Source: Synechococcales cyanobacterium bin59.metabat.ball.084 | Lineage (GTDB): Bacteria; Cyanobacteriota; Cyanobacteriia; Cyanobacteriales; Chamaesiphonaceae | Direction: 5' to 3' | Assembly: GCA_013297675.1 (NCBI GenBank) | Contig: JAAFHZ010000001.1 | Span: 1 to 64,000, forward strand | DNA length: 64,000 bases | Part shown: positions 5,486 to 50,942 of the stretch, in pieces | Position numbering within the stretch: the stretch's first letter is position 1 | Layout: each line of letters starts with the position of its first letter | The notes under the pieces: model-generated | The model's input: only the letters and a program-made list of their open reading frames with translations | The model's database searches: none | What the model was told of the DNA's origin: nothing | Translations under genes and position numbers: made by a program

Positions 5486-8400
5486 TTATTGCAGATCTAA
5501 TTGAGTACACTTGTTGACTGCCAGTAATCGTTGACCAGCAACTACTGTTTGCCCCGGCTGGCAATAAACTGCCGCCACTACCCCAGATGCTTCAGCAACC
5601 ACTGGTATTTCCATTTTCATTGCCTCCAAAATCAGCAACTGATCGCCAGCGGCAACCACCGTACCCGTTTCTACCAAGACCTGCCAAACATTCGCTGAAA
5701 TGTGTGATAAAACTGCTTCAGCACCGGTTGGGATAGGCTCTTCAGTCAATTCTGGCTGAAATATTATCTCATCTGGTTCAGTGAATTCGACCGCGATAGC
5801 TGCGCTTGCACCTTCGGTAATCGCCCATCTTGCTCGTTCTTCATTAAAAGCTTGCTGTTGCTTAGTTTTAAAGGTGGTGAGTTCAGCATCGATCGAACTC
5901 AAAAACTCTTGATACTCCTTCAAACTGAAAGTAGTCTCCTCAATTTGCAACTGAAACTTGCCCACCAAAAAATCTGCTCTGAGTTGCAGCAACTCTTCCT
6001 CCGAGACTGGATAGAAGCGAAGCTGATCAAAAAACCGCAGTAGCCAAGGATTAGAAAAATCAGCAGTGCGCTGAAAGCGATTCCACATTTGCACCGTGCG
6101 CCCCACAAACTGATAGCCACCAGGGCCTTCCATGCCATACACACAGAGATAAGCTCCGCCAATGCCCACCGCATTTTCCGGAGTCCAGGTTCGGGCTGGA
6201 TTATATTTAGTAGTGACCAATCGCTGACGCGGATCGATCGGGGTGGCCACCGGCGCACCCAAATAGACATCCCCTAATCCCAAAACTAAATAGCTGGCAT
6301 CAAACACTATGTCATAGACTTCTTGAATTGAATCTAGGCCATTGATGCGACGGATAAACTCAATATTACTGGGGCACCAAGGCGCATCTGGCCGCACTGA
6401 CTGCATGTATTTTTCGATCGCCAGCAAGGTTGCTGGATCTGCCCAAGATAGCGGTAAATGCACAATGCGACTGGGCACAGTAATCTCGGTAATAGCAGGC
6501 AGTTGAGATTCTGCGGTGATTAATGTAGCTAATAATTCCGCCTGAGAAATGAGGCGACTATCATAGTGAATTTGGATCGATCGAATGCCGGGAGTGAGAT
6601 CAATTACTCCCCGGGGCAAATTAGCCTGCAACCATTCCATCAATACATGAGCACGAAAGCGCAGATTCAAATCCAGCACCAAGTCCCCATATTCCACCAA
6701 CAAATACTTGTCCCCAGCTTGGCGATAGACTATCTTCGATGCCAGATCTTGATGCAAAATTGGTGAACAACGTTGACCAGCAATCGGCACTAGTGGCTGA
6801 GCTTGCAGACTAGCAATCAATTGATCTTGAGCCAGCTCCCGCGCTGCTGCCTCTGCCCAGCTCCACGATTGGAAGCGCACCTTGTCACCGGGTTTGAGCT
6901 GACCCACTTTCCATAGTTCAGCTTGGACAATGACCCCCGGACAGACAAACCCCCCTAAGCTCGGACCATCGGGACCTAAAATTACCGGCATATCGCCAGT
7001 GAAATCGATCGAGCCGATCGCGTAGGCGTTGTCATGAATATTAGAGGGATGCAGACCAGCTTCGCCCCCGTCGGTTCTGGCCCATTGGGGCTTGGGACCA
7101 ATTAGCCGAATGCCGGTACGGGTGGAATTGTAATGCACCTGCCAATCGGTGCTGAAAAACATGGCAATATCAGCTTCGGTGAAAAAATCTGGGGCAGCAT
7201 GAGGACCATCTAAAACTCCAATTTCCCAGTGCTGACTGTAGACGGGGATAGCTTTGGGGTCTATCTTTGTAGCTGGCTTTGTAGCTGGGAGATGACCAGC
7301 CGATCGCAGGAGTTTAATTACATCTCCCGATCGCAGTGCCCGTCCAGCATGACCACCAAATTTACCCAGGAGGAATGTGGATTTACTCCCCAAATAATCT
7401 GGCACATCTAGGCCGCCTTGGATTGCTAGATAGGTGCGATAGCCAGCTCCTTTGATATCTTTGATTTTTAGGGTGCTACCGGCTTTAATCTCGATCGCCT
7501 GCCAATAGGGAATAGCTATATTGTCGATAGTCGCGGTCATCTCCGCTCCGGCCAAGGCCATCACTGCATTTGTCCGAAAGCGAATTGTGGCACCGGTAAC
7601 GGTGAATTCAAAGGCCGCTGTACCTTCAAGATTACCCACTAAACTATTGGCCAAACGCAAAGCTAAATGATCCATTGGTCCAGAAGGTGGAACTCCCACA
7701 TCCCAATATCCCACCCGACCTGGATAATCTTGAATACTGCTGTAAGTGCCGGGTTCGATAATTTCGATCGATTGGGACTGATAAGAAAAATCAGCTAAAA
7801 ACTTAGTGCTCAGATCTGCTGCTATAAATTTATCGCTGGCTAAGATCTGCTGAAGATAATCTAGATTGGTTTCGATCCCATAGATCTTACTAGCTTGTAG
7901 GGCTTGCTGAAGTTGGTTAATTGCATCGGATCGATCAACTCCCCGTACAATCAATTTTGCTAGTAGTGGATCATAGTAAGGAGTGATTTCGGTGCCCGTA
8001 TTAATCCAGCGATCGCAGCGCACGTCTGGAAACTGGACTTGATGCAGAGTGCCAGCGCTGGGCTGAAAATTTTTGGCGGGGTCTTCGGCATAAATTCGTA
8101 CTTGAATGGCATGACCTTGAGGTTTTGCTGCTGGTAAAGATAACGATTCCCCCGCTGCTTGGCGCACCATCCATTCCACCAAATCAATGCCCCAAACTTC
8201 TTCGGTTACGCCATGCTCCACTTGCAGACGGGTATTGACTTCTAAGAAATAATATTGGTTGGTCGGCACATCATAAACAAACTCTACAGTGCCAGCCGAT
8301 CGGTAGTTTACAGATTGCCCCAGCCGAATGGCATGAGCTGCTAATTGCTGACGTAATTCATCGCTAATTCCCGGAGCCGGAGTTTCTTCAATCACCTTTT

Positions 8401-10621: not shown

Positions 10622-10670
10622 AAAAAGCCCAGGAGAGCACTAGCACTGCTAGTACCTAGTTCTCCCGGGC
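10622..10670 (-). terminator. Intrinsic terminator forming the riboswitch expression platform
   Basis: On the minus strand GCCCGGGAGA (10670-10661) pairs with TCTCCTGGGC (10636-10627), one G-U pair, with an inner CTAG stem, followed by TTTTT (10626-10622). The 5' arm is the conserved 3' end of the aptamer, so terminator and ligand-bound aptamer exclude each other. This predicts read-through when guanidine is bound. Confidence 0.85.
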
Positions 10671-10790
10671 TTTTATCCCGCCGTGTAACCAATTGCTTGG
10701 CTGCTTCTCTCGGACCAGCGTCTGTATAACAGACCGGAACCCTAGAAGCTAAAATATCTGAATAAAAAGACGCTGCCTTTCCAGGAAGCT
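10661..10790 (-). promoter_or_regulatory. Guanidine-I (ykkC) riboswitch aptamer
   Basis: Read on the minus strand, the leader contains the conserved blocks of the guanidine-I class in order: CTAGGGTTCCGG (about 10745-10734), GGTCCGAGAG (10716-10707), ACACGG followed by CGGGATAAAAGCCCGGGAGA (10686-10661). A local helix GTCTG-TTATA-CAGAC sits between the first two. The RNA class binds free guanidinium and turns on downstream genes. It lies in the leader of the DUF1989/carboxylase operon, which fixes the pathway as guanidine rather than urea metabolism. The 5' limit is approximate. Confidence 0.92.
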
Positions 10791-42502: not shown

Positions 42503-42531
42503 AGTTTATTGATCCCTCAACTTCAAAAACA

Positions 42532-42554
42532 AAACCCGCATTTAATGCGGGTTT
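42532..42554. terminator. Bidirectional terminator between queF and the DUF4912 gene
   Basis: AAACCCGCA, loop TTTAA, TGCGGGTTT then CGTTT; 30 bases after the queF stop and 25 before the stop of the convergent gene, with A- and T-rich flanks on both sides. Confidence 0.85.
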
Positions 42555-42578
42555 CGTTTAGAGATTAAGATTAAAAAT

Positions 42579-45209
42579 CTAACCGTTAGAGCGAATCATT
42601 ACGGGCGTAGAACGAGCTAGCATCAACCAGGCATTCTCTTCCGAGACATAGCCAATTTCTACTAGGTACTTGCGATCGGCGCGGGGCACTGGTAAGTGCA
42701 GATCCCAAGCCAGCTCATCGCACTCAAACTCTTGAAAATTGCTGGGTAAGTGAGTAGTGATATCAGTATCAGTCACGTCATACATGCGTACCGCCAACTT
42801 GCGGCCACCTTGCTGACGTAGCTGGCGCTTCAGCTTCACCGGTACATCCCAATGCACATAGGCTTGGGCTGGGTTTGGTGAAACTAAAGTAATTTGACCT
42901 TCTTGTTGCAACAAACCGCTTGGTTCGTTCTGGTCTTCACCAGTGACAAAAGATTTGGCAGCGGCAGCACCGCCTGCAACCACACCAGCCGCAGCGGCAG
43001 CACCGCCCACAACTGCTGCTCCGCCGCTTTGGGCAGCGTCTACAGCCTTGTCTTTCAATTCACCGATCGCATCAAAAGGATTGAATCCACCCGATCTCTC
43101 TGGAACTTCTGGGATGTTTGGCAAAGCCATCGGCTCTGACAACATGGAGTCATCAAAAGGATCTGGAGTCGGCAAGTTCAAATCACCGGGTTTTCTGTTC
43201 AATGCCGAGATTTCGGTTTCGTAGCTAGAGTCTTCTAGGCTTAGCTCACCAGAATGATCGTCATTGTTACCCCATAAAGACTGAGCGCCAGTACCAACAG
43301 CAGCGGCTGTACCGCCTACTACTGCTGCTCCCCCAGCGATAGCTGCACCGCCCAAGTCTTGACCGCCTTGAACCACATCACCGACTTTGTTTTTGATGCC
43401 TTGACCAAGATCGCCCAAGTTAAAACCAGTGCTCTCATCGGCTTTTAAATCTGCGGATTTTTCGCCATCTTTATTGCCAAATAGGCCACCAGCCATGGCT
43501 GCGCCGCCAGCTACTGCTGCGCCACCGGCTACAGCGGCACCTTTGAGCAAGTCACCAGCTTTATCACCCAAGCCACTTAAGGGGTTGCCAACATCGGGAA
43601 CTAAGCCTTCGATAGCTTTGCTTGCACCTCCGGTGATCGAGCCACCCAAATCACCAGCTTTATCTTTCAATCCTTCAATAGGGTTGCTCAAATTCAAATC
43701 TGGAGTCAGGTCACTAGCTTTTTGCTTGAGACCTTCTAGGGGGTTGCCAATGTCGATTTTAGGTAATTCACCGCTTAAATCACCACTGAGGCTAGCCGAT
43801 TTGTCTACAGCACCTTTGCCGAGTCCACCAGCTAAGGCTGCGCCGCCTGCTAGAGCTGCGCCACCAGCTAATGCTGCACCTTTCAAGAGGTCGCCAGCTT
43901 GGTCTTTGGCTGCAACTGCTGCACCACCAATCGCTGTGCCAGTCTTTTCTACTACATTGGTAGGTAGTCTCAAGTCACCAGATAGAGGGATGCCACTATC
44001 TTGACCATCTCTGTTGTTGGTAAAACCAGTTGTACCGGTGGCAAAGCCAGTTGTACCAGTAGGTTTCACATCATTTTCTGTGTACAAGGGGTTTAAGCGT
44101 TTAGGCTCTTGGGTAGCTTCTTCTTTTTTCTTGCCACCGGCTAAAGCCCACCAGCCCAAACCAGCCGCACCCAAACCAAGAGGAATTAACCACCAAGGTA
44201 GGCCGCCGCCTTTATCCGCACCGCCAGTCGCTGAGGAACTCGCTGCGCCGGTTTCGGTTGAGCCGCCAGCGGCACCTTCCGGCTTGGGAGCGCTACTACT
44301 AGCTGCCTCTGGCTTATTCTCAGCCGGAGCTGGTGCTGCGCCCGTAGCCCCTGCCACCGTAATACCAGGTACAGCAGCGATCGCTGCTGTACCTTCTGGT
44401 GAATCTACAAAACCTAATAAAGCCTTTGCTCCTTCGCTGGGCTTGTCTTTAGGGTACACATAGGACATCGGCTGAGAGAAAGCATAGCGCTTATCATCAG
44501 GTTGTACGGTGTTCAAGGATAAAACCTTGATTCCAGATAAGCCTTGGACTTCACTAACCGGAACATAGCCGACACCGTTTGTTCCTAGCTTAGACGCTAC
44601 GGATTTAGCACTATCGTCAGTGAGCTTAATAACATTAGAACCTGTTTTGAGACCACTTTTGAACACCGGGTAGCGCCCAAACGACTGTCTGGTTTCACTG
44701 TTATCACTTTGGTCGATTATTTTAATCGCTCCTTTGGTGCCCCCAACCTTAGACCAGTCTTGAATTTTGCCCTGGAACATTGCGGCAAATTGATCAAAGC
44801 TGATGTTTCCCTTCGGAATAAAGGTGTTTTTATCGCTGACGATAATGGCTATTTTCTTGAAACCTAGATCTTTCGATGCAAAGCCCTTAGCCTTTTCTTC
44901 TGGTGTCAAAGGGCGACCGGCACCAATTATATCGGCTTCACCTTTGGCCAAGGCTTCCAGTCCCTTGCTGGTACTGTTATAGGTCGGAACGACTTTAGAA
45001 TCAGCAAATTTCTTGGTAAATGCTTCTTGAAGACCTTTATTGACAGCATCTAAGCTTTGAGAGCCGCCAAGTTTGACTTTTGTGTCTTTGGGCAAAGAAT
45101 TGGGGAGGGGAAACTTAGTTGCTTCCGCTTGTGCTAAAACTTTCGGTGTTGCTGCCACAAGCCCTGCAAGGAGGGATAGTGTTACTACCGAACTCGTTTG
45201 TATTTTCAT
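42579..45209 (-). CDS. PstS-like binding domain fused to a membrane segment, Gly/Ala repeats and DUF4912
   Basis: 876 residues. A signal peptide (to about residue 26) leads into a type 2 periplasmic binding domain of PstS kind (about 45-285): LGGSQSLDAVNKGL, GEADIIGAGRPL, and IIDQSDNSETRQSFGRYP. A Pro/Ala/Ser-rich linker, then one membrane helix (LPWWLIPLGLGAAGLGWWALAGG, about 333-355), followed by KKK. About 430-680 is low-complexity with repeated NPLxGLxDKAGDL and AGGAA modules. The last 110 residues are DUF4912 (QITLVSPNPAQAYVHWDVP). The layout suggests an external ligand sensor with a cytoplasmic domain; no pst transport genes are near. The gene is large and monocistronic. Confidence 0.8.
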   Translation of the reverse strand: MKIQTSSVVTLSLLAGLVAATPKVLAQAEATKFPLPNSLPKDTKVKLGGSQSLDAVNKGLQEAFTKKFADSKVVPTYNSTSKGLEALAKGEADIIGAGRPLTPEEKAKGFASKDLGFKKIAIIVSDKNTFIPKGNISFDQFAAMFQGKIQDWSKVGGTKGAIKIIDQSDNSETRQSFGRYPVFKSGLKTGSNVIKLTDDSAKSVASKLGTNGVGYVPVSEVQGLSGIKVLSLNTVQPDDKRYAFSQPMSYVYPKDKPSEGAKALLGFVDSPEGTAAIAAVPGITVAGATGAAPAPAENKPEAASSSAPKPEGAAGGSTETGAASSSATGGADKGGGLPWWLIPLGLGAAGLGWWALAGGKKKEEATQEPKRLNPLYTENDVKPTGTTGFATGTTGFTNNRDGQDSGIPLSGDLRLPTNVVEKTGTAIGGAAVAAKDQAGDLLKGAALAGGAALAGGAALAGGLGKGAVDKSASLSGDLSGELPKIDIGNPLEGLKQKASDLTPDLNLSNPIEGLKDKAGDLGGSITGGASKAIEGLVPDVGNPLSGLGDKAGDLLKGAAVAGGAAVAGGAAMAGGLFGNKDGEKSADLKADESTGFNLGDLGQGIKNKVGDVVQGGQDLGGAAIAGGAAVVGGTAAAVGTGAQSLWGNNDDHSGELSLEDSSYETEISALNRKPGDLNLPTPDPFDDSMLSEPMALPNIPEVPERSGGFNPFDAIGELKDKAVDAAQSGGAAVVGGAAAAAGVVAGGAAAAKSFVTGEDQNEPSGLLQQEGQITLVSPNPAQAYVHWDVPVKLKRQLRQQGGRKLAVRMYDVTDTDITTHLPSNFQEFECDELAWDLHLPVPRADRKYLVEIGYVSEENAWLMLARSTPVMIRSNG

Positions 45210-47856: not shown

Positions 47857-48034
47857 CGCTCTCTCCAGATAAGTTCCCAACCAAAGATATCAGAGATTGG
47901 AGCATTTACGTAGACGAGCAATCGAAACACGCATCATGCAATGAGAACTCCAAAGATAAAATTTGTTGGTAATTTATTGTGAAATATGAAATCTCTTGTG
48001 TAACATGAAAGTAGAGCTTTTGGGTAGAGATAGT

Positions 48035-49600
48035 ATGCTGAAATATCGTGGTTTAAGAATTGTAAAAATCGGAACGTTAACTGTTTTATTCTGGCCGATG
48101 TTGACAGTTTTTAGTCCGCGCTCGGTTACTTCTACAGATCCAGTGAGTATTTCTAAATCGGTGAAGCCTTTAACTGTGCTAATCGAAGCCGATGACGAAA
48201 ATGGTTCGGGGGTATTGATTGCCCAAAGAAATGGACGATACAAGGTTTTGACTGCCGCCCATGTATTAGCTGATCGGCAAAAAAACTATCGCATTGTAAC
48301 AGCTAAAGATGGTCAGCAACATCAGCCAATTTCTAGCTCCATTCAATCTTTTTCAGACAATGTTGATTTGGCCACGGTAGAGTTTGCCAGCAATAATAGC
48401 TACAATATCGCCAAATTAGGTAATTCAGATAACGCTGCTGAAGGCAGTCCGGCTTTTGTTTCTGGCTTTCCCCGCACCACCTTAGCGATTACTTCTTCAG
48501 TTTATAATTTTAGAGAAGGTCGGGTGGTTGCCAATAGTCCTACTCCGATGGCCGGTGGTTATGCCATTATTTATAGTGCCAGAACTCTGCCAGGAATGAG
48601 TGGTGGCGGAGTATTTAATGCTGACGCTGAACTGATTGCTATTCATGGTCGTGGTGATATTGATGCCACATCTCAAGCTGATGAAGTTAATCCTAATGTG
48701 CGGTTTAAAACTGGCAACGATTTAGGAATTCCAATCAACACTTTTATAAAAATGGTTCAGAAATTACCTAGTTCTGAAACTATAGTCTTGGCTGCTCAAC
48801 CACCTGCCACGCGCCAATTGAGTGAATCTAGCAGTATGTTCGTTCAGGGCGTGGGTCGTGCCCTAAAACTAGATCATACGGGGGCGATTAAAAACTTTAC
48901 TCAGGCAATTTTTAACAACAAAAGGTTTGCTGCTGCTTATCTCAATCGAGGGATTTCTAAATCTGAGATCGGAGATGAACAGGGTAGCTTAGCAGATCAG
49001 GCGAGTTCTTTAGCCATTGATCCAAATCAGTCGATCGCGCTGCTGAATCGGGGAGTGGTGCGCTATCGCCAGGGTGATAAAGCTGGTGCGCTGCAAGACT
49101 ATACGGCGGCAATTAAGCTACAGCCCGATGACCCCGTGGCTTACTATAATCGAGCTATTGTTCATGCTGAGTTACAGCAGTCAGCAGCAGCCCTGGCTGA
49201 CTATGATAAGGTGATTGAGTATCAGCCCCGTTTTGTTGCAGCCTATTACAATCGCGGTCTTTTGCATATGCTGCTGAACAAAACAGCCGAAGCTTTTACC
49301 GATTTCGATCGAGCTATTGAGCTGAAGCCCAATAATCCTCAAGCTTTGTTGAATCGGGGCAATCTACAATTTCAGTTGGGTAGTGGCAGTCGGGCGATCA
49401 GTGACTATTCTCGAGCGATCGCTCTCAAGCCAGATTACGCTTTGGCCTATGTGAACCGGGCTAGCGCTTATTTAAAAACTCGCAATACTGCTGCGGCTTT
49501 GGCAGATTTGCAAAAAGCAGCTCAGCTCTACCAAGAACAAGGTAATTCGGCTAAGTATCAGGAAGTGATCGATCGCTATCGCAAACTTAGCGGCAATTGA
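48035..49600 (+). CDS. Trypsin-like serine protease with TPR repeats
   Basis: About 521 residues from ATG 48035 (MLKYRGLRIVKIG); an upstream start at 47996 is also open. A signal or anchor (IGTLTVLFWPMLTV) is followed by an S1-type protease: His in LTAAHVLAD (about residue 74), Asp in NVDLATVEF (about 110), Ser in GMSGGGVFN (about 190). From about 265 to the end are seven tetratricopeptide repeats (AYLNRGISKSEIG, ALLNRGVVRYRQG and so on). The arrangement is common in cyanobacteria and Bacteroidota; substrate and target are unknown. Export is likely. Confidence 0.85.
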   Translation: MLKYRGLRIVKIGTLTVLFWPMLTVFSPRSVTSTDPVSISKSVKPLTVLIEADDENGSGVLIAQRNGRYKVLTAAHVLADRQKNYRIVTAKDGQQHQPISSSIQSFSDNVDLATVEFASNNSYNIAKLGNSDNAAEGSPAFVSGFPRTTLAITSSVYNFREGRVVANSPTPMAGGYAIIYSARTLPGMSGGGVFNADAELIAIHGRGDIDATSQADEVNPNVRFKTGNDLGIPINTFIKMVQKLPSSETIVLAAQPPATRQLSESSSMFVQGVGRALKLDHTGAIKNFTQAIFNNKRFAAAYLNRGISKSEIGDEQGSLADQASSLAIDPNQSIALLNRGVVRYRQGDKAGALQDYTAAIKLQPDDPVAYYNRAIVHAELQQSAAALADYDKVIEYQPRFVAAYYNRGLLHMLLNKTAEAFTDFDRAIELKPNNPQALLNRGNLQFQLGSGSRAISDYSRAIALKPDYALAYVNRASAYLKTRNTAAALADLQKAAQLYQEQGNSAKYQEVIDRYRKLSGN

Positions 49601-49740
49601 TTTCGCTAAATATCTGTTATCTTGCTTATTCTTCACCCTTTAATAGCTTCGCCACTTGCGCGACAAATGTCTAAGAAAATCAGGCAGAACTTTTGTAGCT
49701 CCGCTTATGCCCATTTTAACAAGAACCATAATCTCTAAAC
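49601..49740. other. Non-coding spacer before the small RNA promoter
   Basis: About 140 bases with no gene. Together with the candidate small RNA downstream it fills the 338-base gap between the protease-TPR gene and the oxidoreductase gene. Confidence 0.4.
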
Positions 49741-49746
49741 TCGTAC

Positions 49747-49776
49747 TTGACACAATCTAAAGCGCTGGACTACCAT
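49747..49776 (+). promoter_or_regulatory. Promoter of the candidate small RNA
   Basis: TTGACA (49747-49752), 18 bases, TACCAT (49771-49776). It predicts a transcript start around 49783, and there is no open frame behind it. Confidence 0.55.
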
Positions 49777-49782
49777 AGAACT

Positions 49783-49905
49783 GGATGCAGCAGACATGCT
49801 TTATGCATGACATCCCGTTACCAGTAATGGTCGAGGAAATCCGGTAAAGGCGTTCTGAATACCAAAAAAGACTTTTTTGGCGAAGGCTCCTCTAGGAGCC
49901 TTTGT
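49783..49905 (+). ncRNA. Candidate small RNA of about 120 nucleotides
   Basis: Bounded by the promoter above and by the terminator at its end. The 5' part can fold: GGATG...CATCC enclosing CATGC...GCATG. A second hairpin CCAAAAAAG-AC-TTTTTTGG lies at 49862-49880. There is no open reading frame with a ribosome site. I do not recognise a known cyanobacterial family (it does not fit Yfr1 or Yfr2 as I know them). Existence as an RNA is inferred. Confidence 0.5.
49883..49905 (+). terminator. Terminator of the candidate small RNA
   Basis: AAGGCTCC, loop TCTA, GGAGCCTTT, then GTT. A perfect stem of eight bases with a short T-run on the plus strand; it sits 280 bases after the upstream gene, hence more likely the end of the small RNA. 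Confidence 0.8.
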
Positions 49906-49937
49906 TATGTCTAGGCTTTGGTAGTTTCTTACTAAAC

Positions 49938-50942
49938 CTAATTCTGCTCCGGCAGCATCACCACTGCGCCATTGAAGGCCGCTAACCGACAGGCATCGGC
50001 GACCCAGAGGCTATCTAGGCTGGCTCCGGGTTTCACATAGTTAGGCTCATTATCAAAGAAATGTGCTAAGGCAATATTGAGATCTTGAATAAACATGCCT
50101 TTGCGAGAACCTAGCTCGATCGAAGTCTGCTCTTTGCCCACAATCAAAGTCCCTTGATCGCCATCAAACACCATCGCTCCTAAATCACCCTGAACTTCAA
50201 ACCGCCGGGATGGTGCCCAGATCTGTTGACCTTTGCCGTAGGCTACTTCCGCAAATAGACCATTGGCAAACTTGAGCTGAGCAGTGCAAAGCAGCGTGTG
50301 GAAATAGTCTTGGTCATCTAAGCCCCAATATTTTTCTTGACAGCTTACTCGATCGACCTTGCCAAACAGATCAGTAAACCGATGTAACCGCGATAGAGCT
50401 GCCGTTAAAGGAAAACCAAACTGCTGTTGTTGATAGCTCCATTTGCGGGGCACCGGGTTCTGGGGCGTGAGGGTGCTATAGCGGGCGTAGTAGGGTTGGC
50501 CAATTTTGGGCAGCCACTCGGTCATGGCTTGGTGCAAAGAACCCAACAACTCAATATGTTCTACATGGAGAAATAGCTGCCGATCGGCGGCCAAAATAAT
50601 GATTTCTTCGGCATCTTGGGGTTCTAGAGCCAAGGGATATTCCACAATTACGTGGCGCAGGGCTTCGATCGCGGCTTTGGCGATCGGGCCATGGAGATCA
50701 TTGGTAGAGCAAATCACCACCATATCGACGTTGGGCATGGCCACTAGTTCTTGCCAACTGGCGGCGGCGGTGCAGTTAAACTCAGTGGCAAATTCTTGGG
50801 CGCGATCGGGCGCAGAACTAGCGACGGCGACTAATTCGGTGCGGCTATCGGCGACGATCGACTGGGCGCGAATTTTGGCAGCGAAGCCGGTGCCCACTAA
50901 GCCGACCTTTAGGGGATTACGAACGTATCGATAAAGACTCAA
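49938..50942 (-). CDS. Gfo/Idh/MocA-family oxidoreductase
   Basis: 334 residues. Rossmann NAD(P) loop VGLVGTGFAAKIRAQS (about 14-29), and the family's EYPLALEPQDAEEII (about 95-109), where the usual 'EKP' is 'EYP'. The C-terminal half is the beta-sheet substrate domain. Such enzymes act on sugars, inositol, biliverdin or amino-sugar derivatives; cyanobacterial biliverdin reductases also belong to this superfamily, which makes bilin chemistry one possibility. No neighbour supports a choice. Monocistronic. Confidence 0.82.
   Translation of the reverse strand: MSLYRYVRNPLKVGLVGTGFAAKIRAQSIVADSRTELVAVASSAPDRAQEFATEFNCTAAASWQELVAMPNVDMVVICSTNDLHGPIAKAAIEALRHVIVEYPLALEPQDAEEIIILAADRQLFLHVEHIELLGSLHQAMTEWLPKIGQPYYARYSTLTPQNPVPRKWSYQQQQFGFPLTAALSRLHRFTDLFGKVDRVSCQEKYWGLDDQDYFHTLLCTAQLKFANGLFAEVAYGKGQQIWAPSRRFEVQGDLGAMVFDGDQGTLIVGKEQTSIELGSRKGMFIQDLNIALAHFFDNEPNYVKPGASLDSLWVADACRLAAFNGAVVMLPEQN

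Follow-up and report, generated by a model that had tools for sequence, protein, structure and literature searches.

A solo SroH-like RNA in a cyanobacterium, probably one half of an RNA-and-protein pair with YjaZ

The antitoxin RNA of type III toxin-antitoxin systems consists of repeated units, as set out in the available portion of PMC5086642. In AbiF-RCd22, the nearest precedent for the RNA described here, a structured RNA adjoins a mobile gene and neutralises the toxic protein by direct contact; RCd22 has two abiF motifs, and AbiF falls in the Abi_2/AbiD/F family that is linked to Cas13 (PMC12373285, from the part of the article available). SroH, to which our RNA proved homologous, has a contact with kbl mRNA that is reported as confirmed in vitro (PMC6172242); it is among the ncRNAs with low ribosomal coverage in EHEC (PMC5331693), is the least conserved of 34 expressed sRNAs common to E. 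coli and K. pneumoniae (PMC3415461), has a table entry of 112 ± 16% (PMC4606813), is marked as containing a REP sequence (PMC12306157) and is also named in PMC5575007 and PMC9764084. The portions of this literature covered here give no settled function for SroH, and those of the first five articles draw no link between SroH and YjaZ. Our wider search, outside which most subscription journals lay, found nothing that joins sroH with yjaZ or htrC.

The window analyzed here comprises the first 64,000 nucleotides of contig JAAFHZ010000001.1 of Synechococcales cyanobacterium bin59.metabat.ball.084. A sequence-only reading had placed a candidate small RNA with promoter, hairpins and terminator at 49747–49905 and considered that it matched no RNA family familiar to that reader. 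An RNA gene is indeed there, with hairpins that are kept with covariation in relatives, but its extent is better set at about 49783–49908 (+ strand) and it does not represent a new family. A permissive Rfam scan of the window yielded sroH (RF00372) at 49754–49904 with 66.4 bits and an E value of 5.5e-15; the scan at gathering score was silent at this RNA, and because 66.4 bits lies below the RF00372 cut-off of 80 bits we call the RNA sroH-like rather than a formal member. The same RNA on a contig of Chamaesiphon sp. 336R, a genome of the same family (G005), reaches 84.7 bits. Covariance model R2, built from 28 sequences of which none is from a known cyanobacterium, scores the window RNA at 111.7 bits (E of 8.1e-26 for the 64 kb searched), and 17 chosen cyanobacterial-type copies, this one included, give 95.4–117.5 bits with the same model. 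On this comparison of sequence and structure with proteobacterial RNAs, the window RNA, a type 1 copy, is homologous to SroH. The homology with E. coli SroH extends over the whole 126 bases, with the same fold and terminator; the two differ in that the E. coli gene lies tail-to-tail with yjaZ, whereas the window copy is cyanobacterial, lacks yjaZ and falls below the Rfam cut-off. Annotated E. coli SroH also has about 30 extra 5' bases, whereas the window RNA is expected to begin at its first helix, P1. The next-best R2 match within the window (42526–42637, 16.7 bits, E of 0.015) is apparently a mere terminator behind an 876-codon open reading frame.

The RNA lies in a gap of 338 bases, as originally described, between the stop codon (49600) of a gene for a trypsin-like plus TPR protein (47996–49600, + strand) and a Gfo/Idh/MocA oxidoreductase gene (49938–50942, − strand). 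The promoter TTGACA-18-TACCAT is present where it had been proposed (49747–49776, + strand, with hexamers at 49747–49752 and 49771–49776 and an 18-base spacer) but taken singly is no better than chance in this region, which holds one such promoter against 1.2 ± 1.2 in shuffles. The best match to TATAAT just 5' of the RNA averages 4.5 of 6 over 74 related loci, versus 3.8 when shuffled, a modest excess. From the promoter position the RNA would be expected to start at about 49783. Just 3' of it, at 49914–49930 on the − strand, lies a 17-base stretch that agrees base for base with the corresponding part of the 3' end of yjaZ in an intact RNA-yjaZ pair (L050); it resembles the KKLPKP C terminus and scores 34, a value reached by 0 of 200 single-base shuffles (all ≤25). 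The whole genome of the window gave no YjaZ match, and the RNA is therefore a solo copy, with this 3' remnant in place of an adjoining yjaZ. Homology to a genome of the same genus (G001) extends on the left as far as 49607 and on the right begins again at 49943, the two sides matching different G001 contigs, so that the window RNA sits at a point of rearrangement; the block 49608–49942 was found at neither flank in G001, in which the Rfam family search found no sroH match. At the position next to the Gfo/Idh gene that the RNA occupies in the window, G001 has what appears by eye to be a MazF-like gene with a small upstream open reading frame (L173, 2232–2880). Elsewhere the window also carries a Guanidine-I riboswitch (10660–10756, − strand, 80.7 bits).

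The fold consists of six counted helices, five of them with compensatory changes, where Rfam's RF00372 model has the terminator alone paired in its structure line. The percentages and counts of changed pairs that follow refer to 52 aligned sequences, the window RNA among them. A 5' hairpin domain (49783–49815, + strand) contains P1 (49783–49787 with 49811–49815) and P2 (49795–49799 with 49805–49809), which are joined by the conserved linker CAGCAGA on one side and A on the other; P1 is paired in 99.6% and P2 in 93.5% of cells, with 3 and 4 pairs, respectively, changed on both sides. It is followed by a three-way junction (49816–49852, + strand) whose closing helix pairs 49816–49819 with 49848 and 49850–49852, is paired in 100% of cells and has 3 of its 4 pairs changed on both sides; in the window RNA one closing pair is a U-G wobble. 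Within the junction lie P3 (49820–49823 with 49828–49831; 94.7% paired), a short P3b (49835–49836 with 49841–49842; 77.8% paired, no covariation) and the conserved CCGGTAA. Next comes the P4 hairpin CCAAAAAA-GAC-TTTTTTGG (49862–49880, + strand), preceded by a conserved TTCTGAATA. Its proposed stem is present, and its inner pairs change together by eye in 63 distinct sequences that we parsed; P4 stands outside the formal covariation counts since the alignment of its arms is off by one base from group to group. The RNA ends in an intrinsic terminator (49883–49908, + strand) with the stem AAGGCTCC (49883–49890 with 49895–49902), the loop TCTA and then TTTGTTAT, its U-rich tail running to a conserved GTTAT. 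A simple scan missed this terminator, which the sequence-only reading had rated as good, but in its stem 99.3% of cells are paired and 5 of the 8 pairs are changed on both sides. The other stems first pointed out, GGATG/CATCC and CATGC/GCATG, exist as well and form part of helices with compensatory changes in relatives. Conservation of the hairpins in relatives, which had been suggested as a check, is thus borne out, with covariation. The conserved unpaired stretches are CAGCAGA, CCGGTAA and TTCTGAAT.

On the alignment of these 52 sequences (A3), RNAalifold returned P1, P2, P3, three closing pairs, two P3b pairs and an extended terminator, with a change on both sides in 15 of 32 pairs. By hand we added a fourth closing pair (49819/49848) and a third P3b pair and cut the terminator to its upper eight pairs. 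The added closing pair reads UA in 32 sequences and AU in the other 20; the added P3b pair fails in 28 of 31 cells. For the edited structure, standard pairs fill 95.8% of 1485 cells against 81.8% in shuffled alignments (0 of 500 shuffles as high), and 194 cells are changed on both sides against 56.0 in shuffles and at most 32 in slid versions of the structure. There is little excess in the number of pairs with a both-side change (16 versus 13.9 shuffled) or in further pair types (36 versus 34.2, with 101 of 500 shuffles as high). With the third P3b pair left out, the 28 sequences without known cyanobacteria are paired in 98.3% of cells and have 147 both-side cells against 53.8 shuffled; further pair types did not rise above shuffles in that set.

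Relatives of the RNA were sought in several ways. A similarity search with 211 bases (E up to 10) matched 3713 of 5426 E. coli genomes, 36 plasmid records and one phage record, from Vibrio. The degenerate pattern CCGGTAAWGRNGYTN{0,1}CYGAATMC found 9 viral and 86 genome stretches, and 62 of these 95 loci match covariance model R1, 41 of them by construction because they served to build it. Each of the 62 has a single match, so that the RNA is single-unit, and their sources, wherever known and leaving L122–L127 aside, are cyanobacteria or gammaproteobacteria. Among the 33 pattern loci without an R1 match, which we set aside, 26 share by eye one coding-looking stretch, mostly from Clostridia, which we take to be ribosomal protein L16 from its resemblance. 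Short 5' patterns in viral contigs occurred in at least 120 and in 78 stretches; of 194 places screened, 22 passed a loose filter and one new RNA was accepted by eye. This is a solo type 1 RNA with an altered P4 on a phage-like viral contig (L220, about 6380–6550, − strand), with no yjaZ adjacent by eye. In the Rfam family search, 24 of 60 related genomes matched sroH at E ≤ 1, mostly with 13–23 bits; we take most of these for chance, given that 4 of 14 control genomes match too, and accept as real the 32.9-bit match in G046, which is an intact RNA-yjaZ pair. In two loci (L051 and L097) an open reading frame right after the conserved GTTAT resembles by eye a DNA cytosine methyltransferase.

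Many of these loci have yjaZ as a neighbor. In E. coli K-12 sroH lies tail-to-tail with yjaZ, plasmid copies lie tail-to-tail with a gene for a YjaZ homologue (NF007263), and in marine gammaproteobacteria yjaZ follows 3' of the RNA on the same strand. Among 80 RNA loci, which form 67 groups of near-identical RNAs, 48 have an intact YjaZ reading frame in the first 1.5 kb beyond the 3' end of the RNA, 33 of them tail-to-tail and 15 on the same strand, the latter always in the order RNA, terminator, yjaZ. Of the remaining 32, nine have a fragment or a broken yjaZ (in two of these, L122 and L099, the contig ends at yjaZ), three lie at a contig edge and 20 have nothing by profile. Seven of those 20 (the window, L057, L087, L119, L132, L025 and L070) retain a yjaZ remnant at the DNA level that scores above all 200 single-base shuffles, and L079 and L037 have weaker remnants (3 and 5 of 200 shuffles as good); no remnant was seen in the other 11, and no intact yjaZ was apparent by eye in L132 and L134. 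Distances among the RNAs agree with those among the YjaZ proteins (r of 0.82 over 25 loci, 0 of 5000 permutations as high). Together with the spread on plasmids and phages, this co-divergence fits a partnership of RNA and YjaZ, and we regard their pairing as well supported. A 2462-base plasmid has yjaZ as its sole larger annotated gene. On E. coli plasmid pEc-JB2-4 (L027, 3193–3727) the RNA is followed by RelE-RelB beside a tyrosine recombinase; on a related plasmid (L028) yjaZ holds the place that RelBE has there.

A small RNA that acts in trans on mRNAs and lies beside yjaZ by chance or for regulatory reasons would account for the solo copies and for the kbl contact (PMC6172242, as reported in the portion available). 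We consider this improbable, because the linkage to yjaZ spans two phyla, plasmids, phages and two orientations while the other neighbors differ among the loci opened, and because the most conserved bases are scattered along the RNA and are not gathered in one seed. The comparative evidence points to a tie with YjaZ rather than to a role with mRNA targets. Antisense control of yjaZ mRNA, in the manner of type I systems, is very improbable: genes lying tail-to-tail can, from their sequence, share a terminator hairpin, but the same-strand loci have no overlap. Target prediction, the proposed further check, was confined to the yjaZ 5' region (−40 to +60) and gave no clear preference of 24 RNAs for their own yjaZ (mean relative rank 0.39; −38.3 versus −36.5 ± 7.9 kcal/mol).

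Looking from the protein side, we asked what lies beside YjaZ genes. Of 291 cyanobacterial genomes, 10 carry the RNA and 8 give a YjaZ match. Five of the 8 have full-length YjaZ-like reading frames: four (G334, G290, G142 and G130) are each adjoined by an R1-matching, type 1 RNA, and G288 has a divergent RNA (24.5 bits with filters off). In G075 yjaZ is broken in two beside a good RNA, and G189 and G152 contain short YjaZ fragments and no R1 match. Conversely, 6 of the 10 RNA-bearing genomes (G000, G291, G093, G174, G296 and G075) lack an intact yjaZ. Among 274 gammaproteobacterial genomes, YjaZ matches occur in six, one of which (G336, the centre) has a type 1 RNA found by R1; in the other five a divergent RNA faces yjaZ from the opposite strand, close to the end of that gene, with scores of 17.3, 14.7, 14.0, 13.4 and 7.5 bits (E of 0.01 to 2) that rest on position and a reading of the fold by eye, 7.5 bits being chance level. 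The YjaZ matches of L159 and L160 are partial; the L160 frame stops 118 bases short of the RNA, and that of L159 runs into it. Of 5426 E. coli genomes, 3711 have a match to sroH and 3709 one to yjaZ, compared as totals and not genome by genome. In the chromosomes of E. coli O157:H7 ATCC 35150 and TT12A the yjaZ match falls in two pieces with 89% covered, and from this sequence the gene may be broken there.

Plasmids carry a YjaZ-like protein in 559 of 72,556 records, 504 of them at <60% identity and 372 from Klebsiella. Of four distant plasmid loci that we opened, one, from Vibrio, has an upstream type 1 RNA (64.2 bits); in the other three, yjaZ lies tail-to-tail with an RNA of a further type (16.2, 11.5 and 6.6 bits; same plan by eye). 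A third RNA type, with a GGTTACAGG linker, GGTAACAG and GGCTGAGG, not all in every copy, is seen in L383, L384, L385, L143 and L186 and is convergent with distant YjaZ genes on Klebsiella and Pseudomonas plasmids and elsewhere. In viral contigs a strong RNA (82–131 bits) accompanies 9 of 12 YjaZ loci. The RNA itself had led to six of the 12 contigs; among the six others, three carry a strong RNA (L181–L183). L186 has by eye a type-3-like RNA, L187 a 16.8-bit partial match only, and beside the L188 match no RNA was seen. Of the 12 divergent YjaZ loci opened, 10 are adjoined by an RNA built on a similar plan, in several cases judged from a weak score and by eye (L143, L156–L160, L186 and L383–L385 with the RNA, L187 and L188 without).

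For YjaZ itself we found no credible relative in Pfam (33 members searched plus 5 proteins), or in PADLOC (3 proteins) and PDB sequences, which gave weak chance-level rows only; matches to PHROGs (3 proteins) were likewise at chance level. AlphaFold2 models of a cyanobacterial and an E. coli YjaZ had mean pLDDT values of 88.0 and 90.4. Foldseek returned nothing with E ≤ 0.001 for either, or among viral models. In a structural realignment confined to Foldseek's own top chains, almost all of the first 20 rows per model were toxins of the RelE, YoeB, ParE, HigB or BrnT type, with Z scores of 4.5–3.5 and 4.7–3.4, mostly over 70–89 residues with an r.m.s.d. of 2.7–5; the best rows had Z of 4.5 (85 residues, r.m.s.d. 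4.5) and 4.7 (75 residues, r.m.s.d. 3.1). Unrelated folds enter the E. coli list from Z 3.4, and by the tool's own warning Z < 8 can reflect a common arrangement. Type II toxins (RelE, YoeB, HigB and BrnT) are thus the best structural matches of both models, and YjaZ differs from them in the weak Z scores, an extra N-terminal part and a constant neighbor that is an RNA and not a protein antitoxin. We treat a RelE-like fold, predicted from these models, as a lead based on a weak match. Arg-141 and His-143 (E. coli numbering) are invariant and Ser-146 and Tyr-148 nearly so, all on the last long strand.

HtrC, as YjaZ is also called, has been reported necessary for E. coli at high temperature. 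This is unlike a plain toxin and counts against a toxin reading. The records of YjaZ name it a stationary phase growth adaptation or heat-shock protein, which would suit a working ribonucleoprotein in which the RNA activates or guides YjaZ or is processed by it, in stress or phage defense and with no antitoxin role. The same linkage and co-divergence would be expected of such a particle, and the conserved unpaired stretches would suit protein binding. The RNA often occurs without an intact yjaZ, where it would be needless if it served YjaZ only; some of those copies are worn, so this does not decide the matter, and we judge a ribonucleoprotein of this kind unlikely.

The state of the solo copies bears on whether the window RNA is a dead relic that no longer has a function, left behind when a mobile module was lost. 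Its yjaZ is gone and the surrounding block was not found in the sister genome; in G005 of the same family, too, all that is left of yjaZ beside the RNA is a 3' remnant, longer than that in the window; and several solo RNAs elsewhere show wear (L111 and L099/G291 lack a terminator, the RNA in G291 lying 341 bases from a contig end, and G174 scores 59.8 bits). The window RNA, by contrast, is undamaged, its helices intact and its score inside the range of the 17 copies. In the congeners G093 and G075 the RNA lies behind the same gene and is largely unchanged, with matched changes in P2, while yjaZ is nearly erased in the former and broken in the latter, though G093 is altered in the otherwise invariant GAAT. 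The sequences suggest that the RNA has been retained for its own sake, with recent loss of yjaZ as the alternative, and we think a dead relic rather unlikely. Vibrio phage 1.262.O has the RNA upstream of a terminase gene, with a remnant of the yjaZ 5' end only (L025, 3869–4100).

The reading that we favor, with slightly better than even confidence, is that the window holds a solo sroH-like RNA whose usual partner is YjaZ, and that it is antitoxin-like and was left after the protein was lost. The homology, the covarying fold of about 126 bases, the linkage to yjaZ elsewhere, the failure to find yjaZ here and the unharmed state of the RNA are observations. The RNA is probably one half of an RNA-and-protein pair, and perhaps the antidote of a toxin. 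The mechanism would run as follows: YjaZ would be a RelE-like ribonuclease toxin or a growth regulator; the RNA would be transcribed from a promoter of its own up to its own terminator and would fold; and the folded RNA would bind YjaZ and hold it inactive, by analogy with AbiF-RCd22 or type III systems. On this view, solo copies such as those of the window and the Vibrio phage would be antitoxins that remained, or were retained, once the toxin was gone, and they could give protection from a YjaZ brought in by a plasmid or phage. That yjaZ is lost while the RNA stays, and that full-length YjaZ lies beside an RNA in nearly all of the loci above, fits a toxin-antitoxin pair better than the reverse, and RelBE in the place of yjaZ (L027) together with the MazF-like gene in G001 hints at toxin-antitoxin company. 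On the other side stand the weakness of the fold match and the wear of some solo RNAs; the two weak viral YjaZ matches without a clear RNA (L187 and L188) count against the antitoxin reading, and co-divergence can arise by plain co-inheritance. The likeness to ToxIN and CptIN is that of a structured RNA tied to a candidate small endoribonuclease, on plasmids and phages too. Type III systems have one operon and promoter with a terminator between RNA and toxin, whereas 33 of our 48 intact pairs lie tail-to-tail, and SroH-YjaZ has a single RNA unit without tandem repeats (62 of 62 loci) and a candidate RelE-like protein. YjaZ is likewise set apart from AbiF, having no Pfam match and other best fold matches. 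It is conceivable, though we hold it with less than even confidence, that SroH-YjaZ makes up an unrecognized class of RNA-protein toxin-antitoxin system, in which a RelE-like ribonuclease is kept in check by a single-unit, three-way-junction RNA with which it co-diverges. Its carriers would be plasmids and phages as well as chromosomes, over a range from E. coli to cyanobacteria, and the solo RNAs of bacteria and phages would serve as anti-toxin or anti-addiction devices.

This comparative evidence ties SroH to one protein, adds a fold that is missing from Rfam's model and widens the range of SroH to cyanobacteria, phages and plasmids, and with it the function of SroH becomes testable in K-12. 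If a toxin and an RNA antidote are indeed what is paired here, hundreds of plasmids may carry an unnoticed stability or defense module.
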